Shown here piece by piece: positions 2,683-21,404 of a stretch of 34,713 bases of DNA; the stretch's first letter is position 1, and every line of letters begins with the position of its first letter. Made by a program: the position numbers and the translations under genes. The notes under the pieces were generated by a model that had not been told where the DNA came from, searched no databases, and saw only the letters and a program-made list of their open reading frames with translations. The DNA comes from an uncultured Mediterraneibacter sp. (GTDB lineage: Bacteria > Bacillota > Clostridia > Lachnospirales > Lachnospiraceae): the NCBI GenBank assembly GCA_944381935.1, contig CALWMN010000026.1:1-34713 (forward strand). Direction: 5' to 3'.

Positions 2683-2752
2683 ATAAGTACCGGAACGAAA
2701 GCGTAATCCGGGCTGTACTTTGACAATCGAATAGTGATGAAGCAACGCAATT

Positions 2753-2777
2753 CCGTACAAAAGATTGTGTACGGAGG
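2753..2777 (+). promoter_or_regulatory. Hairpin overlapping the recombinase ribosome site
   Basis: CCGTACA (2753-2759) pairs with TGTACGG (2768-2774). The right arm runs into GGAGG at 2773-2777, the ribosome site of the recombinase, so folding would partly hide it. Confidence 0.45.
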
Positions 2778-2784
2778 TAGCGTT

Positions 2785-4392
2785 ATGAAACGGGTTTATT
2801 GTCTATATAGAGTATCTACCAAAAAGCAGGTAGACAAGAATCAGAATGATATTCCAATGCAGAGAACCGCTTGCCGGGATTTTGCAAGCAGCAAGCCAGA
2901 CTGGATGATCTTGAAAGAGTTTTCCGAGAAAGGTATTTCAGGATATAAGGTGTCGGCTAATGACCGGGATGCGATTCAGGAATTGAAAGAGGCAGCTCTG
3001 AATAATGAGTTTGATATTCTTCTGGTCTTTATGTTTGACCGGATTGGACGAATTGATGATGAGACGCCCTTTGTGGTGGAATGGTTTGTAAAGCATGGGA
3101 TAGAAGTGTGGAGCAGTCAGGAAGGACAGCAGCGGTTTGACAATCATGTGGACAAGCTGATGAATTATTTGCGTTACTGGCAGGCGTCCGGCGAAAGTGA
3201 AAAGACGTCGATCAGAATTAAGAATAAGATGCAGCAGATGATGCTTGATGGACTGTATACTGGCGGACCGGTCAAATACGGATACAGCCTGGCAGACAGC
3301 GGTCTTATAAACCGAAAAGGCCAGCCAATCAAAAAGTATGTGATTGATCCGGCAGACAGCCAGGTAGTACAGATGATTGACGAAATGACAATCCGTAAAG
3401 GATACGGCTCCTGGAGGATGGCAAACTTCCTTAATAAGAATGGGTATAAAACTAATACGGGAGGGAAGTTTACAAGTACCAAAATCATCCGCATATTGAA
3501 AGACTCCTATTACTGTGGACGATTGGACGACGGTTCGACTTCTGAAAAACTGGAGGCTTTGAGAATCCGCAGCGATGAGACATACGAGCAGATACTTTAT
3601 ATTCTGGAGCAGCGGCAGAGCAAGAATGAAGAAAAACGCCATATCGCTTTACAGACCAAAGGACAGGCAATGCTTTCAGGTAATATTTTCTGTGCGCATT
3701 GCGGAGGGCGGCTGACGATTATCCGCTATCAGGATCGTTATGAAAGGGCTGACGGTTCCATATATTCTGTGGATCAGGTGAAATATTCCTGTTACCACAA
3801 AACCCATAAGCTCTGCAAATGTGATGGACAGTCAACATATCAGGCTGACCGTGTGGATGAAGTGATCCGGCAGATTATCCGGCGTATCTTTAGCTGTATG
3901 GATGGAGCGCCAGAAGAAGAAAAATTGCAGGCGCTCTTTAAACGGCAGATGGCAGGCAACCGGGCAACGCAGAAGAAACTTGACCTGGAACTGAAAAAGA
4001 ACCGGGAGCAGCTTACAAAGCTGCAGCTTGAAATCGGCAAGACGCTGACAGGTGACAGCATATATTCCCCGGAAGATTTGACTCAGGCAATCCAGACTAT
4101 CCGGTCACGGATTACTGAGGCGGAGGGGAAACTTATGGAACTGAAAGCAGAGGAAGAACAGAAGAAACGGGGAATAGATATGATTACCCCTACATATAAT
4201 CAATTCAAATCCTGGGCCGATGAATTTGATACAGCTACATTGGAACAGAAAAAGATGATTGCCTGCCATTTGTTCAAGCGCATTGAGATTGGCAGGGATT
4301 ATAAAATTTCTGTTGAACTGAATATGAGTTACCAGCAGTTTTGCTCCGAGTGGAGCGAGGGTAGATTTTTTACAACGGCGGCCACTGTGTAA
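2785..4392 (+). CDS. Large serine recombinase (site-specific integrase/excisionase)
   Basis: A protein of 535 residues from ATG 2785 (GGAGG 7 bp upstream; an in-frame ATG at 2734 lacks a ribosome site). It starts with a resolvase-type catalytic domain: Y-R-V-S-T-K-K-Q with nucleophile Ser11, then the conserved E-F-S-E-K-G-I-S-G and L-V-F-M-F-D-R-I-G-R. Next comes the recombinase DNA-binding domain (about 165-270, K-Y-G-Y ... G-Y-G-S-W-R-M-A-N-F-L-N), a zinc ribbon (C-A-H-C at about 303-306 with later cysteines near 336) and a coiled coil (about 390-460). This is the full architecture of large serine integrases, which cut both strands at a 2-bp core and join attP with attB. It is the last gene of the element, next to the junction in tRNA-Asn, and should catalyse integration there. 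Confidence 0.93.
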   Translation: MKRVYCLYRVSTKKQVDKNQNDIPMQRTACRDFASSKPDWMILKEFSEKGISGYKVSANDRDAIQELKEAALNNEFDILLVFMFDRIGRIDDETPFVVEWFVKHGIEVWSSQEGQQRFDNHVDKLMNYLRYWQASGESEKTSIRIKNKMQQMMLDGLYTGGPVKYGYSLADSGLINRKGQPIKKYVIDPADSQVVQMIDEMTIRKGYGSWRMANFLNKNGYKTNTGGKFTSTKIIRILKDSYYCGRLDDGSTSEKLEALRIRSDETYEQILYILEQRQSKNEEKRHIALQTKGQAMLSGNIFCAHCGGRLTIIRYQDRYERADGSIYSVDQVKYSCYHKTHKLCKCDGQSTYQADRVDEVIRQIIRRIFSCMDGAPEEEKLQALFKRQMAGNRATQKKLDLELKKNREQLTKLQLEIGKTLTGDSIYSPEDLTQAIQTIRSRITEAEGKLMELKAEEEQKKRGIDMITPTYNQFKSWADEFDTATLEQKKMIACHLFKRIEIGRDYKISVELNMSYQQFCSEWSEGRFFTTAATV

Positions 4393-4674
4393 TCAGTGGC
4401 GCCAGGTTATCTCCGTATAAGATTTAAACCAATGATTAATATGGCATACGATAAACCCGGTATGTAATAAATAGCCACACCTTTTCGTGAAAAATGGAGA
4501 AACAAAAAAATTTACGAAAAATGAAAGTTTCCTCTTGTCAAAAGCAGAAAGCTGTGGTACTATATCACTCGTTGAGATTAGTGTTCAACAATCTGTTTTA
4601 ATAGCGATTTAAATCCCGAAGCTGGTTTTTTGAATCGACATTCTACCTAAGTGTTTTCCGGTATGAAACCGCAA
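4393..4674. other. Element end between recombinase and tRNA junction
   Basis: About 280 bp, AT-rich, with no credible gene. It should contain the recombinase attachment half-site at its right edge. No long repeat or terminator with a U-tract is seen. Confidence 0.5.
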
Positions 4675-4734
4675 CAATGGTAGAGCATTCGGCTGTTAAC
4701 CGAAGTGTCGTTGGTTCAAGTCCAACAGGGGGAG
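4675..4734 (+). tRNA. tRNA-Asn(GTT), 5' part missing (disrupted by the integrative element)
   Basis: From the D-loop on, the cloverleaf is complete: GGTAGAGCA, anticodon arm TTCGG-CTGTTAA-CCGAA with anticodon GTT, variable loop GTGTC, T arm GTTGG-TTCAAGT-CCAAC, 3' acceptor strand AGGGGGA and discriminator G; no CCA is encoded. Upstream, the expected acceptor strand TCCCCCT and the D-stem GCTC are absent; the sequence reads GTATGAAACCGCAA instead, which cannot pair. The gene is therefore cut in its D-arm and should not give a working tRNA. The missing 5' part and the promoter should be at the element's other end. Confidence 0.8.
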
Positions 4735-13872: not shown

Positions 13873-13909
13873 ATAAGTATTTGAGGTAACAAACTATCCG
13901 GTATACAAT
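13873..13909 (+). promoter_or_regulatory. Promoter of the split alcohol dehydrogenase with LysR-type half box
   Basis: ATAAGTATTTG (13873-13883) overlaps -35 TTGAGG (13881-13886); TACAAT (13904-13909) follows after 17 bp. The right half of the palindrome is less conserved than in the other two copies. Confidence 0.65.
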
Positions 13910-13950: not shown

Positions 13951-13994
13951 ATGCTTGGAAATTTTGAATACTGTAATCCGACAAATTTGTATTT
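13951..13994 (+). pseudogene. 5' end of an iron-containing alcohol dehydrogenase, interrupted by the IME
   Basis: ATG 13951, preceded by GGAGAGGAG, starts M-L-G-N-F-E-Y-C-N-P-T-N-L-Y, the usual beginning of YqhD/BdhA-type dehydrogenases. After TATTT (13990-13994) the sequence switches to the mobile element and the frame ends at 14011-14013 (TAA). The rest of the gene resumes, in the right frame, at 20274. As it stands, this end makes only a 20-residue peptide. Confidence 0.88.
13990..13994. repeat. Left 5-bp target repeat of the IME (TATTT)
   Basis: It is the last host sequence before the element, codon 14 (TAT) and the start of codon 15 of the dehydrogenase, and is repeated at 20274-20278. 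Confidence 0.8.
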
Positions 13995-14044
13995 GAAAAC
14001 CACAATTTTATAAGTGGTTATTAACCCTCACAGGGTTTTAATAA

Positions 14045-14062
14045 AATCCTCCAAAAGCCTTG
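14045..14062. repeat. Left-end inverted repeat of the IME
   Basis: AATCCTCCAAAAGCCTTG is the reverse complement, at 16 of 18 positions, of CAAGGGTTTCGGAGGATT at 20241-20258 near the right end. It is a probable integrase or excisionase binding site. Confidence 0.65.
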
Positions 14063-14129
14063 AAAATAAAGGATTTATCGCAAAATGCTCACCTTAACTT
14101 ATTATACGATTTCACACTGTTTTATTCTT

Positions 14130-14161
14130 CCCTTGGAAGCTGATAAGGGCAAACACAAGGG
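14130..14161. repeat. Left copy of the IME subterminal direct repeat
   Basis: It starts CCCTTG and ends with a 24-bp part (14138-14161) that matches 20169-20192 at 22 of 24 positions in direct orientation. CCCTTG and CAAGGG at its ends also pair with each other. Confidence 0.7.
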
Positions 14162-14193
14162 CAAGAAAATCTGATAACAAGATATAACAGAAT

Positions 14194-14220
14194 GTGGCAA
14201 TCGGAGAACTGTGACGTATG
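14194..14220. repeat. Left arm of a 25-27 bp inverted repeat within the IME
   Basis: The reverse complement of this block matches 18800-18824 completely except for a 2-base insertion. The left arm lies about 30 bp before the TnpV-like gene, the right arm about 25 bp before the integrase gene. Confidence 0.75.
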
Positions 14221-14251
14221 TGCGAATATATTATACTGGAGGATTTATTAT

Positions 14252-14629
14252 ATGGACAAGTACATTTTTGATGAAAACAATGGTTTGTGGTATGAATTGC
14301 AGGGAGATTATTATATCCCTTGTCTGATACTTTCCGAAGAAAAAACACAGCCTATCGGTTTGTGGGGACAACGCCACAAGCAGCATATAAAGGATCACAA
14401 GCAGTTCCTTTATACCACAATGCTGATTGAGGGTACCCTTAATCGCTATCTTGCAGATATTAACCAACAGGCGGAGCAAATGTTCCATAGATTGATTGAG
14501 GAAATGGCTCAAAAGCAAGGTGCGACAGAACAGTTAAAAGCAGAACAGCCTATGGAATGGATAGGATTGATGAACAACATTCAAGCCTGTGCAAGAGAGG
14601 TTGTCAATAGCGAATTGATTTACGTATAA
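14252..14629 (+). CDS. tnpV: TnpV-like transposon-encoded protein
   Basis: A protein of 125 residues with the TnpV pattern: Y-I-P-C-L-I-L-S-E-E-K, I-G-L-W-G-Q-R-H-K-Q-H-I-K-D-H-K, L-Y-T-T-M-L-I-E-G-T-L-N-R-Y-L-A-D-I, and the end M-E-W-I-G-L-M-N-N-I-Q-A-C-A-R-E-V. TnpV is known from Tn4451-type Clostridium transposons and is widely found in Clostridia mobile elements, with no proven reaction. ATG 14252 is chosen for GGAGG 9 bp upstream; a longer frame from 14192 has no ribosome site. It is the first gene inside the left end, followed by a terminator-like stem. Confidence 0.82.
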   Translation: MDKYIFDENNGLWYELQGDYYIPCLILSEEKTQPIGLWGQRHKQHIKDHKQFLYTTMLIEGTLNRYLADINQQAEQMFHRLIEEMAQKQGATEQLKAEQPMEWIGLMNNIQACAREVVNSELIYV

Positions 14630-14644
14630 CTCAGTATAGGTTAG

Positions 14645-14675
14645 GGGCGGTAAGCCAGTTCTTGGCTTATCGCCC
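14645..14675 (+). terminator. Stem-loop after tnpV
   Basis: GGGCGGTAAGCCA and TGGCTTATCGCCC form a 13-bp stem with one G-T pair and a five-base loop, followed by TTGTCTG. The U-tract is weak. Confidence 0.55.
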
Positions 14676-14705
14676 TTGTCTGCCTATGAGCAAAATAAAG
14701 AAATG

Positions 14706-14749
14706 CCGTCAATGGCAGTGCTTGCACTGTTCATCTTGACCATTGACGG
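14706..14749. repeat. Perfect inverted repeat with an inner hairpin
   Basis: CCGTCAATGG (14706-14715) and CCATTGACGG (14740-14749) are perfect arms; inside, CAGTGC-TT-GCACTG forms a second stem. This could be a second terminator or a protein-binding cruciform between tnpV and the cargo gene. Confidence 0.6.
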
Positions 14750-14790
14750 TATTGCGGATTTTGCTATAAGCTTTTAAGTTTTTACACCAG

Positions 14791-14819
14791 ATGACATTTA
14801 AGCTATTTTATGATATAAT
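14791..14819 (+). promoter_or_regulatory. Promoter of the IME cargo gene
   Basis: ATGACA and TATAAT with a 17-bp spacer, about 38 bp before the start codon; AAGGAG precedes the start. Confidence 0.55.
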
Positions 14820-14857
14820 TTTAGAAAAATGAAGCAATCCATTTAAGGAGTCGAATT

Positions 14858-15868
14858 ATGAACAGTTTGGAGCGATATATAGAACAACTAAACGAAATCG
14901 AAGCCAAATTCAATGGTTATAAACAGGACTTGGATAATATTATTTTTAAAGTTTCATCTATGGTTGCCCGTACTGTCATTACCAACGGAGAAATAGCAAA
15001 CCCAACGCCGTATTACCACGAGCGAATGGGAAGTAAATTAAACGGGAAAATAATACCGTCTCCCATCGTTTCTAACGACTGTATGAAATACCATTATGAT
15101 AGTGAAGATAGACTTATTATGGTGGAGGAATACAGCGTATTTCTGAAAAAATTTCAAATCAGAGAATTGTATTTTTATAATGAGCTAACAGAAAGATTGA
15201 GATTATCAAGCGGAATGCTTGCAGTTTTATCTGTGTTTGATAACCCGTTTTCAAACACGAAGTTAAGTTTAGCTTTTGCGGGGCGTAATGGTTTTATTGT
15301 TGAAGAATTTATTTATGATGGAGATGTTTTAACAGAAATAAAGATTACTCGCAGTAAGGCAAAACCCGATAGTCAAACCGAAGAGCATAAATTCGTTTAT
15401 GAGAATCACAAGCTAATTCAGATTGAGCGTATTTGTCAAAATGGTTATAGGGAATTAAAATATACCACAAAAAAACCTAACTTCAACAAGATCAAAGAAG
15501 ATACATATAAAGCACTCAAAAGCACAATTACTGATTATACTGGTAATTTTACTGCATTTGGAATCGAGGGATTTGTAGACCAACAGCAGCCGATGCTCTG
15601 TGTGTGCTTCACGGATGAAAATGAACCGAGTGATTTGATTGCTGATTGGGGTGCGGAAATGCACGATTTACAACTGTATGATTGGCAATTTAACGATTCG
15701 CAGGAGAAAAAGTGCGTAAAGATTATCGGTGAAATAATTGTGCAACTTGTTGAGGAAGGATTGCTTAAAGATAAGCAAATTTATTTCCACCAAAGTCAGG
15801 TTTGTGCTACGCAGTTATATTCGGGATTAAAAACCGTGTTTAAGAAGGCTAACATAGTAGTTAATTAG
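14858..15868 (+). CDS. IME cargo protein of unknown function
   Basis: A soluble protein of 336 residues without signal peptide or membrane segment; I do not recognise a family. Residues 1-35 look like a coiled helix. From about 75 to 215 there are alternating strands with a repeated Y-x-Y/F-x(5)-L-x-x-I look: K-Y-H-Y-D-S-E-D-R-L-I-M-V, E-E-F-I-Y-D-G-D-V-L-T-E-I, H-K-F-V-Y-E-N-H-K-L-I-Q-I and R-E-L-K-Y, as in YD/RHS-like or immunity-type beta proteins. The last 100 residues are mixed, with W-G-A-E-M-H-D. It has its own promoter and a strong bidirectional terminator, and is AT-richer than the host genes. As a self-contained cargo gene it could be an immunity or defence protein; this is speculation. 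Confidence 0.6.
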   Translation: MNSLERYIEQLNEIEAKFNGYKQDLDNIIFKVSSMVARTVITNGEIANPTPYYHERMGSKLNGKIIPSPIVSNDCMKYHYDSEDRLIMVEEYSVFLKKFQIRELYFYNELTERLRLSSGMLAVLSVFDNPFSNTKLSLAFAGRNGFIVEEFIYDGDVLTEIKITRSKAKPDSQTEEHKFVYENHKLIQIERICQNGYRELKYTTKKPNFNKIKEDTYKALKSTITDYTGNFTAFGIEGFVDQQQPMLCVCFTDENEPSDLIADWGAEMHDLQLYDWQFNDSQEKKCVKIIGEIIVQLVEEGLLKDKQIYFHQSQVCATQLYSGLKTVFKKANIVVN

Positions 15869-15877
15869 GAAATTATA

Positions 15878-15927
15878 CATAAGAAAACACCCTGCAAGAC
15901 AAAAACCTTGCAGGGTGTTTTCTTATG
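15878..15927. terminator. Bidirectional terminator between cargo gene and relaxase
   Basis: A perfect 21-bp stem (15878-15898 with 15907-15927) around an 8-base loop, with AAGAAAA on one side and TTTTCTT on the other, so it ends transcription from both strands. It lies between the convergent cargo and relaxase genes. Confidence 0.9.
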
Positions 15928-15990
15928 CTCTGATATATATGTAAGACCGCAAGGCAGGTCGCCCTGCGGTGTCGATTTCGTATGTCGCGA

Positions 15991-17421
15991 TTATCTGTCC
16001 TTGTCTTGGGATTTCTTTCTTTGCTTCGGCTGAGAGTGCTGCTTACCCTCTTCCTGAAGTTGTCTGAGCCTGTTGCGCACACTTTGTCTTTCGGGCGGTC
16101 TGTGTTGTTTCTCGGCAGGTTTTGGTTCGTTCTTGATTGCCTGCTCCCATTCTGCAAGCTCTTGGTTATACTGTGTCACAATAGCCTCTGCTTTGCGGTA
16201 AGTTTTCATAAATGCCTGTACATCAGGATAACCGTCATCTTTTAGAATATCGGGGATTTTATCCAGTTTTTCAGCAAGTTCGGCTTCGGTCTGCTGTATC
16301 TGTTTTTCCAGAGCCTTGCGTTCTTTGCCCTTGAAGATACCCGTTGTTTCAGCAAGCTGCTGTCGCAGATTCGGGAGTGTGACTTCCTGTATCTTCTTGA
16401 TTGCTTTCGCCTGCTTCTGTACCTTTAGCATAAGGGTCTGCATTGTGCGGAACTCGTCCATATCCATATCAAGGACTGGTTTGGGTGGGATATCCTTTTC
16501 ACGGATGATGGCTTGGAGAAATTCCTTTGCCTTGCCTACGATACCTCGGAACAGGTTTGGAAGCCAACCGTTTTCACGGATGGAATGACCGGCTTTGTCG
16601 TGGATTTCGGTCTGCTTGATTTCCAGTATCTTTGCTTCTTCAATGCCCGATACAAGAGCCAAATCCGCTGTCCTGTTCCATTCCTGCCTTGCGGTGTTGT
16701 CCGCTTCGATTTCGGCAGCCTTGGGGTTGTTCTTGCCTATCTTTTTTGTTGGGAGATACACGCTGTTCTTATCAAACACTTTCAGCCGTTGTTCGGGATC
16801 TGAAATGTGGGAATTGATAAGTTCCGTGTAAACTTCTTTTGCTTCTGCTATGAACGCTTCACTTTTGAAACGCTCATCTTTGGTTGTGAATAAATGGCTT
16901 TCGTAAACATCCCCCTTTTTGATAACGGTACAGCCTTTTCGGATTTGACCGTTTTCGTCTGTGATTTCTTTCTTGGTTCGTACCCTTTTTCCTGTTTCGT
17001 CATAAAATACGCTTCTGGTGGCAATCTTGATGTCAGGTTCTGGAAGCAGTTTCCTTTCGCTGAATATGAGATGAATGTGGTAATTGGTCTTGCGTTTGTT
17101 GTGGTGCAGAGCCGATACACATTCCACTCCGTACTGCTGTTGGAACTTATCCGTAAATTCTTCAAGCACCTGCTGCGGAGGAAAGGTAGTATAAATCTCA
17201 GGCAGGGCGATTATCAGTTCCCTTGCTTCGATACACTTTCCTGTTGTTCCGCTTCGCTGAAACTCCTGCTGACTTTCCCTGGCAAGATTCTTCCAAAAGG
17301 TATTGTCGGCGGTACGATAGGTGGCATAAAGGTTTTCCTGTTTGGTGTGGCTCGTGATATATGAGATTCTTCCCTTAACATTGGGCAGCTTCGACATCTG
17401 TACAAACGAATGTCTTGCCAA
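15991..17421 (-). CDS. MobA/MobL-family relaxase
   Basis: A protein of 476 residues. The relaxase domain covers about 1-240: the start has K-G-R-I-S-Y-I-T-S and E-N-L-Y-A-T-Y typical of MobA/MobL, and N-Y-H-I-H-L supplies the metal-binding histidines (about 115 and 117, with H-H at 106-107). The rest is a charged coiled coil (about 330-420) and a basic tail. It would nick at oriT and lead the strand into a recipient using another element's conjugation machinery. TTG 17421 is preferred: GGAG lies 7 bp before it and the N-terminus M-A-R-H-S-F-V-Q-M-S-K-L-P fits the family; the frame is open up to ATG 17466 and an ATG at 17397 is the other choice. The gene starts next to the repeat-rich region at 17468-17647. 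Confidence 0.88.
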   Translation of the reverse strand: MARHSFVQMSKLPNVKGRISYITSHTKQENLYATYRTADNTFWKNLARESQQEFQRSGTTGKCIEARELIIALPEIYTTFPPQQVLEEFTDKFQQQYGVECVSALHHNKRKTNYHIHLIFSERKLLPEPDIKIATRSVFYDETGKRVRTKKEITDENGQIRKGCTVIKKGDVYESHLFTTKDERFKSEAFIAEAKEVYTELINSHISDPEQRLKVFDKNSVYLPTKKIGKNNPKAAEIEADNTARQEWNRTADLALVSGIEEAKILEIKQTEIHDKAGHSIRENGWLPNLFRGIVGKAKEFLQAIIREKDIPPKPVLDMDMDEFRTMQTLMLKVQKQAKAIKKIQEVTLPNLRQQLAETTGIFKGKERKALEKQIQQTEAELAEKLDKIPDILKDDGYPDVQAFMKTYRKAEAIVTQYNQELAEWEQAIKNEPKPAEKQHRPPERQSVRNRLRQLQEEGKQHSQPKQRKKSQDKDR

Positions 17422-17467
17422 CCTTTTGCTCCTTTCTTCGTTGAGAATACCGTACTCATTACGCAAC

Positions 17468-17647
17468 CGACTTGTCGGATGCGGCTGTCACAGCCATCGG
17501 TGATTGGTGGGACAGCAATGGAAATTGCGGTGCAATTTCCGCTGTATCATAGTTGAGGTGTATGTGTCCGAAGCTGTGATACAGGCTCCCCGCAGGGGCG
17601 AAATACCCAGAGTACAAATCGTAGATTTGTGCGAGGGGTGTATTTCG
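17468..17647. other. Candidate origin of transfer (oriT) of the IME
   Basis: This 180-bp gene-free stretch just upstream of the relaxase gene has five hairpins: CGAC-TT-GTCG (17468-17477), GGCTG-TCA-CAGCC (17483-17495), GGAAATTGC-GGT-GCAATTTCC (17520-17540), CTGTATCA (17542-17549) with TGATACAG (17577-17584), and a double one with CGAAATAC (17599-17606)/GTATTTCG (17640-17647) around ACAAATC-GTA-GATTTGT (17614-17630). Dense inverted repeats next to the relaxase start are what oriT regions look like. The nick site is not known. Confidence 0.5.
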
Positions 17648-17677
17648 CTCTCAAACGCCGAGGGCTTTGGAGAACGG

Positions 17678-17893
17678 TTATTCCACTTTTCGTACATCAT
17701 TGGGATTGAGTAAGTTCCTGCCCTGATTGACCGTCATAAAACGCTCCAGCGTATCCCTGCGGATAATGGTCTTTCGTCCGACTTTCAGAACAGGCAGCTT
17801 GCCCCAGTCCACCAGTTTTCGCATTGTGTTCCTACCGATACCCGTACATTCCGCTGCTTCTTCGATAGTTAAACCCATTTTAATTGCTGTCAT
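17678..17893 (-). CDS. xis: Excisionase-like helix-turn-helix protein
   Basis: A protein of 71 residues: L-T-I-E-E-A-A-E-C-T-G-I-G-R-N-T-M-R-K-L-V forms a MerR-like helix-turn-helix, followed by L-P-V-L-K-V-G-R-K-T-I-I-R-R-D-T-L-E-R-F wing residues, as in Tn916-type excisionases. Such proteins bend DNA at the ends and push the integrase towards excision. GGAG lies 8 bp before ATG 17893. A consensus promoter on the minus strand drives it, overlapping the repressor boxes, and the relaxase gene follows in the same direction, so excision and mobilization are probably co-expressed. Confidence 0.85.
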   Translation of the reverse strand: MTAIKMGLTIEEAAECTGIGRNTMRKLVDWGKLPVLKVGRKTIIRRDTLERFMTVNQGRNLLNPNDVRKVE

Positions 17894-17915
17894 TGAACAT
17901 CTCTCCTTTCAAAAT

Positions 17916-18034
17916 ACTCATTTTGCAACTTTGCAATTATCATTATACTTATTTTGCTATTTCTTGTCAACTCATTTTACAACCTATTAAAGATATTTTT
18001 TAATTTTTATTAGAAAAAGAGTTGCAAAATAGGT
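17916..18034. promoter_or_regulatory. Operator array between xis and the XRE repressor
   Basis: Three direct boxes, ACTCATTTTGCAAC (17916-17929), ACTTATTTTGCTAT (17947-17960) and ACTCATTTTACAAC (17970-17983), and one inverted box GTTGCAAAATAGGT (18021-18034). They overlap both divergent promoters, as expected for binding sites of the XRE repressor next door. Confidence 0.65.
17942..17970 (-). promoter_or_regulatory. Promoter of xis (and relaxase)
   Basis: On the minus strand TTGACA (17970-17965) and TATAAT (17947-17942) are both perfect consensus with a 17-bp spacer. One operator box lies in the spacer and another touches the -35. Confidence 0.85.
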
Positions 18035-18050
18035 TTCAATATGGTATACT
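18022..18050 (+). promoter_or_regulatory. Promoter of the XRE repressor
   Basis: TTGCAA (18022-18027) and TATACT (18045-18050) with a 17-bp spacer. The inverted operator box covers the -35, indicating autoregulation. Confidence 0.75.
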
Positions 18051-18074
18051 TGGTTTCGATAGGAGGTGTAAACC

Positions 18075-18725
18075 TTGAAAAAAGAAATTACATTCACCGC
18101 AAAACAGGTCGGTGAACGAGTGAAAGAACGTCGAACAGAATTGAATCTTACAATGCCAGAGCTTGGCAAGCGTATCGGAGTGAACAAGTCAACGATACAA
18201 AGATACGAAGCAGACGGCGTAGACCCAAAGAGAACAATGATTATCAATGGACTTGCAGAAGCATTGCTTACCACTCCTGAATGGCTCACAGGTCTTTCGG
18301 AGGATAAGGAATATGACAGCAGAACGCTTTGTGAAAAAGATTTGGAAGAACATATCAAAAAGTACATTGATACTGTGTCTACGGTTGTGAATGGCGAACC
18401 GCACCAACAGCTCCTTACCACATTCCTCGGAAAGATGATTGATTTGTATTCCGTTCTCTGCTACCACTTCTCCGATGCTATGGCAGAGGTTGACCGTGTG
18501 GCAGAAGATGAAGGACTGAAACAGTCTCTCCGCAGATATGCGATTGAATCAGGAGCGATTACAGAGCGAGTTTACCATAAAGAGATGGAAGCACCGATTG
18601 AGGATATGAAACGATTCTTAGACGGAATTTTACATATCTACGATGAAGGACGCACCGCTGTAAAGATGGGTGACCTTTTCGGGATAGTAGCGGAAGCCGA
18701 AGCAAGGCTTGCCGAAAAAGAATAA
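18075..18725 (+). CDS. XRE-family (cI-like) repressor of the IME
   Basis: A protein of 216 residues with an N-terminal helix-turn-helix (about 10-65): V-G-E-R-V-K-E-R-R-T-E-L-N-L-T-M-P-E-L-G, then G-V-N-K-S-T-I-Q-R-Y-E. The rest is helical, without a peptidase domain, so it is not cleaved like LexA/cI. TTG 18075 follows AGGAGG by about 8 bp. It is divergent from xis, with shared operator boxes between them, a typical lysogeny-like switch: it would keep excision and mobilization off. The integrase follows on the same strand, 123 bp away. Confidence 0.85.
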   Translation: MKKEITFTAKQVGERVKERRTELNLTMPELGKRIGVNKSTIQRYEADGVDPKRTMIINGLAEALLTTPEWLTGLSEDKEYDSRTLCEKDLEEHIKKYIDTVSTVVNGEPHQQLLTTFLGKMIDLYSVLCYHFSDAMAEVDRVAEDEGLKQSLRRYAIESGAITERVYHKEMEAPIEDMKRFLDGILHIYDEGRTAVKMGDLFGIVAEAEARLAEKE

Positions 18726-18737
18726 TTCCGTGGCTCT

Positions 18738-18770
18738 TTGACAATGAAAAAAGCCGATTAAACAATCGGC
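18738..18770 (+). promoter_or_regulatory. Possible integrase promoter and small hairpin
   Basis: TTGACA (18738-18743) is followed after 17 bp by AACAAT, a poor -10. The hairpin GCCGATT-AAAC-AATCGGC (18753-18770) lies across it and has no U-tract. The integrase may otherwise be read from the repressor promoter. Confidence 0.3.
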
Positions 18771-18799
18771 GGATGTGACACTATTTACTTTACGCACAC

Positions 18800-18824
18800 C
18801 ATACGTCACAGTTCCGATTGCCAC
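18800..18824. repeat. Right arm of the 25-27 bp inverted repeat within the IME
   Basis: It matches the reverse complement of 14194-14220 apart from a 2-base gap, and ends 24 bp before the integrase start codon. Confidence 0.75.
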
Positions 18825-18848
18825 GGATAGAAAGGAGACTATTTATCA

Positions 18849-20147
18849 ATGGCAAAAGGATCTGTAAGAAAAAAGGGCAAGAAATGGTACTACCGCTTCT
18901 ATGTAGAAGATGAAAGCGGAAAGATGGTACAGCGTGAGTTTGCAGGCACAGAAAGCAAATCCGAGACGGAAGCATTGCTCCGCAAGGCAATGGAGGACTA
19001 CGAAGCAAAGAAGTTCGTGGCAAAGCCTGAGAACACCACTGTGGGTATGCTGCTTGATATGTGGGTGGAGGAAGAACTGAAACCCGGCAATCTGAGCAAC
19101 GGCACAGTGATGGCATATATGGGGACAGTGAACAGGATAAAGAAATATCCTATCGGCGACAGAAAGCTGAAAACGGTCACTGCGGAACATTTACAGGCAT
19201 TTATGGACTTCCTTACTTTCGGAGGACAAAACCCTGACGGAACTACAGCAAAGGCACTCAGCAAAGGGTATCTGAGACTGTTCTCGGCAGTATTGCAGGG
19301 AGCGTTCCGATTTGCGGTATTCCCGAAGAAACTGATTTCCTTTAACCCTATGCAGTATGTGGTATGGAGGGGAAAGAAAGAGGAATACGAACTGTTTGCA
19401 GACGAGGACGGCGAAGTTGACAACGCACCTACCATTGACCATCAGCAGTTTCTGATGTTGGAGGACTTTCTGAAAAAGAAAGACAATCCTGCATTACTTC
19501 CGATGCAGATAGCCTATTACACAGGACTTCGTATCGGAGAAGCGTGTGCATTGACTTGGCAGGACATCAACCTTGACGGACAGTACCTCACAGTACGACG
19601 CAGTATGCGATACAACGGGCAAAGGCACAAGACAGAGATAGGTGCTACCAAACGCAAGAAAGTCCGTACCGTGGACTTCTGCGACACTCTGGCAGACATC
19701 CTCAGAAAGGCAAAGACGGAACAGCACAAGAACCGCTTCAAGTATGGCGAACTCTACCGCCTCAACTACTACAAAGAGGTCAAAGAGAAAGACCGTACTT
19801 ACTACGAAGTCTACAGCCTGCCGAGAACCGAGGAAGTGCCAGACGGGTACAAGGAAATATCCTTTGTCTGCCTGAGACCTGACGGAGCATACGAGTCACC
19901 GAGTACGGTTGGTGTTATGACAAGGTCGGCAAAAAAGAAGTTGGAAGGATTTGAAGATTTCCATTTTCATATGCTGAGACACACATTCACAAGCAATCTG
20001 CTCTCCAACGGTGCAGCACCAAAGGATGTGCAGGAACTGCTCGGACACTCTGATGTAAGTACCACAATGAACATCTACGCTCACTCTAAGAGAGAAGCGA
20101 AACGAACTTCCGCAAGACTGCTTGATAAGGTGGTCGGGGAAGCCTGA
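18849..20147 (+). CDS. int: Tyrosine recombinase / integrase of the IME
   Basis: A protein of 432 residues. An N-terminal AP2-like arm-binding domain ([16 protein letters not shown]) is followed by a SAM-like core-binding domain (about 65-175) and the catalytic domain. The catalytic residues are visible: Arg228 (T-G-L-R-I-G-E), His374 and Arg377 (H-M-L-R-H-T-F), His400 (L-L-G-H) and Tyr410 (N-I-Y-A-H-S). It resembles the Tn916 integrase family, which uses short coupling sequences and tolerates many AT-rich targets, agreeing with the TATTT junction inside a coding gene. GGAG lies about 11 bp before ATG 18849. It is the last gene before the right end. Confidence 0.95.
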
Positions 20148-20158
20148 ACAAAAAGTTT

Positions 20159-20192
20159 CCCTTGTTTCAGCTCATAAGGGCAAAAACAAGGG
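20159..20192. repeat. Right copy of the IME subterminal direct repeat
   Basis: It begins CCCTTG and its 24-bp part (20169-20192) matches 14138-14161 at 22 of 24 positions. It begins 11 bp after the integrase stop. Confidence 0.7.
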
Positions 20193-20240
20193 AAAATACA
20201 TAAGGAACGAGTATTAAAATGCCGATTTTCCTTGAAAATA

Positions 20241-20258
20241 CAAGGGTTTCGGAGGATT
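20241..20258. repeat. Right-end inverted repeat of the IME
   Basis: CAAGGGTTTCGGAGGATT lies 15 bp from the right junction and is the inverted partner of 14045-14062. Confidence 0.65.
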
Positions 20259-20273
20259 GATTAGACAAAACTT

Positions 20274-20278
20274 TATTT
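20274..20278. repeat. Right 5-bp target repeat of the IME (TATTT)
   Basis: It is the first host sequence after the element, the same as 13990-13994, and in frame with the dehydrogenase. Confidence 0.8.
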
Positions 20279-21404
20279 TGGAGAGGAATCGCTGGATTAT
20301 CTGAACACGGAACTGCCGAAATACGGCGATAATGTCGTCCTGATCTATGGCGGCGGTTCCATTAAAAAGAACGGGATCTACGATGACGTATGCCGGATCC
20401 TGAAGGATAACGGAAAAAATGTGGCAGAGATTTCCGGCGTCATGCCGAATCCGACTGTCGAAAAGCTGTATGAAGGAGTGGAGGTCGCAAGGAACCACCA
20501 TGCGGACCTGCTCCTTGCCGTAGGCGGCGGTTCCGTCTGCGATTATGCGAAGGCAGTCTCAGTCTCTGTGAACTGTGAGGAAGATCCGTGGGAGAAATAC
20601 TACATCCGTTTCGAGGAACCGGACTGTGAGACGCTTCCGGTGGGATGCGTCCTGACGATGGTGGGAACCGGTTCGGAGATGAACGCAGGTGCGGTTATCA
20701 CAAACCATGAGACGAAACTGAAGATCGGCCATGTCTTTGCGGATGAGAAGATCATGCCCCGGTTTTCTATCCTGAATCCGAAGTATACGCTGACACTGCC
20801 TCATTATCAGATGGTGGCAGGAATTTACGATATCTTTAATCATATCTGTGAGCAGTATTTCTCCGGAGAGGACGACAATACCAGCGATTATATCAGCGAA
20901 GGGCTGATGCGCTCCCTCCTTCATTCCAGCAGGATCGCCAATAAGGATCCACACAATTACGAGGCGCGCAGCAATATCATGTGGACTGCCACATGGGCGC
21001 TGAATACCCTTGTGGCAAAAGGAAAGTCTACAGACTGGATGGTTCACATGATCGGGCAGTCTGTGGGGGCTTATACGGATGCGACCCACGGCATGACGCT
21101 GGCGGCTGTCTCCCTTCCGTATTACCGTTATATCATGCCATATGGCCTGGAGAAGTTCAAACGCTTTGCGGTCAATGTGTGGGATGTGGAGCCGGAAGGA
21201 AAGAGTGGCGAACAGATCGCAGAGGAAGGCCTGAAAGCGATGGAAGGCTGGATGAGGGAACTGGGACTTGTCATGAAGATTTCTGACCTGGGGGCGACGG
21301 AAGAGATGCTTGACGGCATTGCAGACGGTACGCTGATCATGGAAGGAGGATATAAGGTCCTTGACCGTGATGAAGTGAAAGAGATCCTGAAAAAAAGTAT
21401 GTAG
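20274..21404 (+). pseudogene. Iron-containing alcohol dehydrogenase, 3' part cut off by the IME
   Basis: From TAT 20274 the frame reads Y-F-G-E-E-S-L-D-Y-L and continues to the TAG at 21402-21404 (376 residues); with the 13 codons before the insertion it makes 389, the size of the family. The NAD(P) motif G-G-G-S and metal ligands are intact: D-I-F-N-H (Asp and His four apart) and two His 14 apart around I-G-Q-S-V-G-A. The second His of the usual H-x-x-x-H is Gln here. Immediately upstream in frame is TAG (20262-20264), and the first start-like codon is GTG 20421, so no complete enzyme is made while the element is inserted. It is a paralog of the gene at 22778 and would reduce aldehydes to alcohols. 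Confidence 0.9.

Follow-up and report, generated by a model that had tools for sequence, protein, structure and literature searches.

That excision of the mobile element Tn916 regenerates interrupted genes has reportedly been known for decades, the observation being ascribed to Gawron-Burke and Clewell. In Tn916 the left end of the inserted copy is bordered by a 6-bp coupling sequence that comes from the donor (PMC12084037); in Tn1549, whose target is given as TTTT-N6-AAAA, a heteroduplex of 5–7 nt is formed and the donor site is resealed (PMC5871717). Low target specificity has been described for Tn4555 and Tn5520, two integrative and mobilizable elements (IMEs) from Bacteroides fragilis (PMC5704250), and the prophage phiSa3int interrupts the gene hlb, which is whole again after excision (PMC6597384). 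The present analysis concerns an element of 6.28 kb inserted near codon 12 of an alcohol dehydrogenase (ADH) gene of the iron-dependent family (Fe-ADH), in contig CALWMN010000026.1 of an uncultured Mediterraneibacter sp. (host genome G000, 3.04 Mb, a draft of 54 contigs); the whole stretch analysed, 34,713 nucleotides long, is referred to as the window. Very probably, the element is an IME belonging to a family widespread among gut Clostridia, which entered a functional gene, probably recently, by a mechanism like that of Tn916 and Tn1549, the outcome being a possibly reversible inactivation and no dedicated switch.

The Interrupted Gene and Its Empty Site in Relatives

The ADH gene is found in two pieces, both on the forward strand:

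13951..13985, + strand: left ADH piece, host sequence running from the ATG through GACAAA; 35 nt identical to the related genome G078; frame stop at 14011–14013
20270..21404, + strand: right ADH piece, 376 codons from TAT 20274; PF00465 and PF25137; 92–95% identical in amino acids to the whole genes of G081, G004, G078, G002, G076 and G010

The frame opened by the ATG at 13951 stops at a TAA after 20 codons, while the right part belongs to an open frame (20265–21404) that begins directly after a TAG (20262–20264), contains no internal stop and has GTG 20421 as its earliest ATG, GTG or TTG. Copies of TATTT lie at 13990–13994 and 20274–20278, at an offset of 6284 bp, and the joined pieces amount to 13 + 376 = 389 codons; an earlier note on this DNA had described the gene as split in this way by an inserted IME, with a left part ending after 20 codons and a right part lacking any earlier start, and the sequence bears out both statements. 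The right part is assigned to Fe-ADH by both Pfam families; among solved structures it is matched best by 7w9x, by the butanol dehydrogenase 1vlj and by YqhD 1oj7, and it resembles the butanol dehydrogenase/YqhD group. What we take to be the metal ligands of YqhD, namely Asp-x3-His and two later His, all lie within this piece.

The uninterrupted gene, which the earlier note had proposed to seek in related genomes, was found there whole and with the same site. Twenty-nine ADH loci were compared, coming from 28 genomes of the same genus and one of the same order: the site is empty in 27 of them, whereas of the remaining two L149 is cut by the contig end and L148 is without the site, lacking the ADH N-terminus and showing no element end within the 400 nt before its match. 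The peptide at the site is NPTKLYFG in 26 loci and NPKKLYFG in L029. In G078, sequence identical to the window runs through 35 nt of left flank, counted from the ATG, and then through 18 nt of right flank starting with ACTTT; since G078 continues into ACTTT across its empty site, ACTTT is to be regarded as the host spacer and TTTGT, which was not found at the empty sites of the relatives, as the element-borne one. On the same G078 contig, a second, partial copy of ADH is present about 1 kb past the first (L140 2576–3022).

Element Ends, Core Motif and Spacers

The two junctions read as follows:

13980..13995, + strand: attL core GACAAA-TTTGT-ATTTG, composed of host GACAAA, the donor-type 5-nt coupling sequence TTTGT and the element left end ATTTGAAAACC
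20264..20279, + strand: attR core GACAAA-ACTTT-ATTTT, composed of the element right end GACAAA, the host-type spacer ACTTT and host ATTTT

Besides TATTT, also GACAAA is duplicated at the 6284-bp offset (13980–13985 and 20264–20269), a repeat that the earlier note had overlooked. On alignment of the ends with related loci, conservation of the element starts on the left at ATTTGAAAACC (13991) and on the right runs through GATAAA, corresponding to GACAAA 20264–20269 in the window; as read from these ends, the core is GAYAAA-N5-ATTTR. The TATTT that had been reported at both junctions is indeed present at both, but the core is larger (GACAAA-N5-ATTT); TATTT as the entire duplication was rejected, given that the ends of the relatives show the longer motif.

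The ends of the relatives were obtained both with and without a motif filter. A junction finder, run on 90 loci (L043–L132), demanded set hexamers and TT at two positions on the right, and [AG]TTTGAA or ATTAGAA on the left, its counts at these positions being fixed by construction; 35 loci were kept, with both ends found, the right hexamer accepted and spacers of 5 nt. Motif-free recounts were made on the best 80 of the 360 relatives of the element confirmed in the genome collection, and reached 29 left and 45 right ends. The right hexamer is GATAAA in 40 of these 45, GACAAA in four and GATCAA in one; it is followed by five variable bases (mostly YYGGA) and then by host ATT at positions 6–8 in 41/45 (ATTT in 38/45), and host AAA is found at positions −8 to −6 in 25/29 left ends. 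The two spacers, compared in the 35 loci kept by the finder, are unequal in 30 and equal in five; in the window they are TTTGT on the left and ACTTT on the right, and in this inequality the element family resembles the coupling sequences of Tn916 and Tn1549. The fragmentation of the draft genome into 54 contigs might raise the suspicion of an assembly artefact, by which the element was joined to the wrong contig; this is extremely improbable, both junctions lying within one contig, with a core architecture repeated in dozens of other loci and with flanks that both match a single gene of one relative (G078).

Proposed Mechanism and Expected Outcome of Excision

Two gene pieces, empty sites in relatives, conserved element ends and unequal spacers are observed directly; the course of events proposed to account for them is the following. 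The tyrosine integrase would recombine the circular form of the element with a loose target, AYAAA-N5-ATTTR; the spacers of circle and target need not match, as in Tn916 and Tn1549, so one junction (left) would retain the donor spacer TTTGT and the other (right) the host spacer ACTTT. As long as the element is in place the enzyme would not be produced; Int and Xis would be able to excise it, and the resealed site would be a heteroduplex whose daughters carry either the ancestral Lys12 or Asn12, the host effect being an insertional inactivation which may revert.

The likeness to Tn916 and Tn1549 consists of a tyrosine integrase, many target sites and a short donor spacer at one end, along with a heteroduplex on excision, which for the present element we infer from the junctions (PMC12084037, PMC5871717); like Tn916, moreover, the element encodes a Tn916-Xis-like protein. 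It is unlike Tn1549 in its target, AYAAA-N5-ATTTR and not the described TTTT-N6-AAAA (PMC5871717), and unlike both in that its six main frames hold no conjugation module. A single tyrosine integrase, mobilizability and low target specificity make it similar, by description, to Tn4555 and Tn5520, which differ in coming from Bacteroides fragilis (PMC5704250).

Both spacers comprise 5 nt and removal of 6284 bp preserves the frame with either of them: ACTTT gives AAA-CTT (Lys12-Leu13) and TTTGT gives AAT-TTG (Asn12-Leu13). Lys12 is identical in all 27 readable relatives. Because the junction spacers differ, excision should leave Lys12 or Asn12 alleles; the claim of the earlier note that excision restores the gene exactly is thus correct as to the frame, which is kept either way, but not as to the product, for which two alleles are expected, one ancestral (Lys12) and one with Asn12. 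In a more speculative reading, since the spacer is swapped at unchanged length, each visit of the element to a gene could leave a lasting codon change, so that coding sequence would be edited by a mobile element on its departure. The wider proposal that the whole family leaves on departure such an in-frame change (here Lys12 to Asn12), by coupling-sequence transposition at its own target AYAAA-N5-ATTTR, with a polarity opposite to that of Tn916 and in many hosts, is advanced only tentatively.

A number of observations weigh against the explanation preferred here, i.e., recent insertion by a mechanism of the Tn916/Tn1549 type. Both window spacers end in T, where the relatives have A in 44/45 right and 28/29 left ends, and on the right the element ends in GACAAA, not in the commoner GATAAA; this copy sits at an atypical site and may be poorly excised. 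The alignment of the integrase with Tn1549 Int (6emy) covers only 50 residues (372–421, E 9.4e-10), and XerA (5hxy) scores better; given so distant a likeness to the integrase of Tn1549, the shared coupling-sequence mechanism has to be read from the junctions. Neither an excised circle nor an empty site was seen in this strain, the pattern of joined element ends having given no match in viral contigs, in 150 loci or in 299 genomes; this is a weak negative, as circles rarely show in assemblies. Finally, the dating of the insertion is weak: the dN/dS of the right ADH piece against nine relatives is 0.032–0.051 (0.025–0.084 among the relatives), a normal constraint, to be expected after a recent insertion but just as well in a gene that frequent excision keeps alive, and since dS to the relatives is at least 0.64, the value for the nearest one compared, a brief spell without constraint would stay invisible.

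The deviation of the core from consensus at its last spacer base, taken together with the requirement of Tn1549 excision for a particular flanking base pair (PMC5871717), may also be read to mean that the insertion is dead, i.e., that off-consensus junctions trap the element and ADH will decay. This variant, which is compatible with the preferred explanation, is in our opinion rather unlikely; the mobility genes read open, and low-scoring cores exist at other loci, so that the integrase apparently accepts them.

Target Choice and the Question of a Switch

The suitability of ADH as a target was evaluated with a model of 34 other cores (L106 was excluded, its right flank being nearly the same as that of L103, which stayed), whose leave-one-out scores range from 4.2 to 20.8 bits with a median of 16.2. 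The ADH core scores 4.1 bits and would score 10.8 with the left spacer; 60 of the 56,766 window positions outside the element score at least as high, which places it in the top 0.1%, yet under every core of the model. Exact matches to GAYAAA-N5-ATTTR in G000 number eight, attL among them, vs 20 for the reversed control, and the motif is therefore not enriched. That the element targets Fe-ADH genes was considered and rejected: a scan of 96 other loci (L043–L138, some of which reach no junction, while 35 show both element ends) found a single ADH, which in L121 stands some 1.4 kb away from the right end. Repeated occupation of ADH was not seen either, there being no junction ADH in those 96 loci and no element at the site in the 29 related ADH loci. 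An open frame of at least 200 codons spans the flanks in 12/35 loci, seven of which have at least 40 codons on each side (counts with no shuffled control); judging from these frames, gene interruption is apparently not special to the ADH copy of the element.

These results bear on the proposal of the earlier note that excision acts as an on-switch whose state could vary within a population, a reading under which the insertion would be maintained as a genetic device for turning the enzyme on and off. Such a switch, which we consider very unlikely, is favoured by a frame preserved by either spacer, by open integrase and excisionase frames and by the normal constraint on the right ADH piece, and prophages acting in this way have been described (PMC6597384); in particular, phiSa3int in hlb is likewise a mobile element interrupting a host gene that is whole again after excision, but there excision has been measured and a widely distributed prophage family makes use of the same gene (PMC6597384), neither of which is seen for the IME. 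The proposal is left unsupported by many unrelated insertion sites and a loose target motif, by an ADH site that is weak even though among the top 60 positions, by the lack of any other ADH insertion (27/29 related loci unoccupied, none with the element at the site) and of any observed excision, and by the presence of other Fe-ADH genes. Since G000 holds six Fe-ADH matches, the interrupted gene included, its loss may be buffered. Furthermore, internal stretches are missing in several same-genus orthologues (L020–L024, L029 and G026:C63), some apparently in frame, and residues about 126–245 are missing in G016 and G026:C63; the gene seems to lose internal parts readily and may often be dispensable, which also argues against a switch.

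As to control of the gene, one candidate site was noted upstream:

13881..13909, + strand: promoter-like site 5′ of ADH, TTGAGG-17-TACAAT; promoter scan, chance level

The scan of this region found two sites vs 1.7 expected from shuffles; its counterpart in the alignment is TTGAAA...TACAAT in both G002 and G076, and G004, G081 and G078 do not conserve it. The information content of the T-N11-A (LysR-type) motif is too low to call the box that the earlier note had placed at 13873.

Genes and Relatives of the Element

The six main frames of the element are the following:

14252..14629, + strand: TnpV protein (PF14198, E 4.5e-44)
14858..15868, + strand: 336-aa cargo protein without family match, in a segment varying between relatives
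15991..17466, − strand: MobA/MobL relaxase (PF03389, E 6.2e-11; weak MobQ match below cut-off)
17681..17896, − strand: excisionase, Tn916 Xis-like, HTH_17 (PF12728, PF09035; TIGR01764 above cut-off)
18075..18725, + strand: helix-turn-helix regulator (PF01381)
18849..20147, + strand: tyrosine integrase, 432 aa (PF00589)

By predicted gene content the element is an IME, having its own integrase and excisionase, a relaxase and no mating-pore family; no mating-pore or conjugation genes were found in the six main frames scanned, smaller frames falling outside the scan. The integrase is the sole close copy in G000 (next match E 1.1e-10 across 59 residues). The cargo protein has zero matches in Pfam, NCBIfam, PADLOC and PHROGs, and in its region the DNA match to L054, L055, L056 and L059 is lost at 14.4–14.8 kb and regained at 15.9 kb; over 4.4 kb of backbone the DNA of L054, L056 and L059, each at another insertion site, is 94–96% identical. 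The hosts of the best 80 of the 360 relatives include Lachnospiraceae, Oscillospiraceae and others, eight relatives being 97–99% identical. Among the results listed by searches of open-licence literature, whose queries did not extend to the target motif, no publication on this IME family was seen.

Some additional observations concern the relatives. A left-end remnant of 278 bp, 99.3% identical, is present in Lachnospira eligens NC_012780 (L043 8987–9278), at an unrelated locus, where it extends into an annotated cas2 gene. Parts of the element are also matched by four unverified scaffolds of human faecal origin recorded as 'Bacteriophage sp.' (L050/MT838331, L051/MT836879, L052/MT836468 and MT836902), pieces of such elements thus sitting among phage records. 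In three loci from different hosts (L103, L106 and L115) the flank to the right of the element is near-identical, ATTTAACTACCYCTTAATTARTCGTTTAATTTTG, and may mark a hotspot of insertion that the three have in common within some other mobile element. The L079 contig (7221 bp) starts and stops within the element core, its two ends overlapping by 8 nt, as read by eye and not counted as evidence; it may represent a circle or a contig broken at a repeat.

Elsewhere in the window (2734–4392), a large serine recombinase of 552 aa is encoded, with Resolvase, Recombinase and Zn-ribbon domains, and behind it lies a marginal tRNA-like match (4671–4726; 29.3 bits, cut-off 29), where ARAGORN finds none; the two are possibly another small element or a remnant.

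Biological Significance

The case is real, well delimited and for the most part ordinary, a gene inactivated through the insertion of a promiscuous IME; as read from the ends, the motif and the empty site in the sequence, it offers a natural example of a promiscuous gut IME inactivating a metabolic gene. The two-allele outcome expected after excision constitutes a testable prediction, and knowledge of the target motif may make it easier to delineate this common family of elements in gut genomes.

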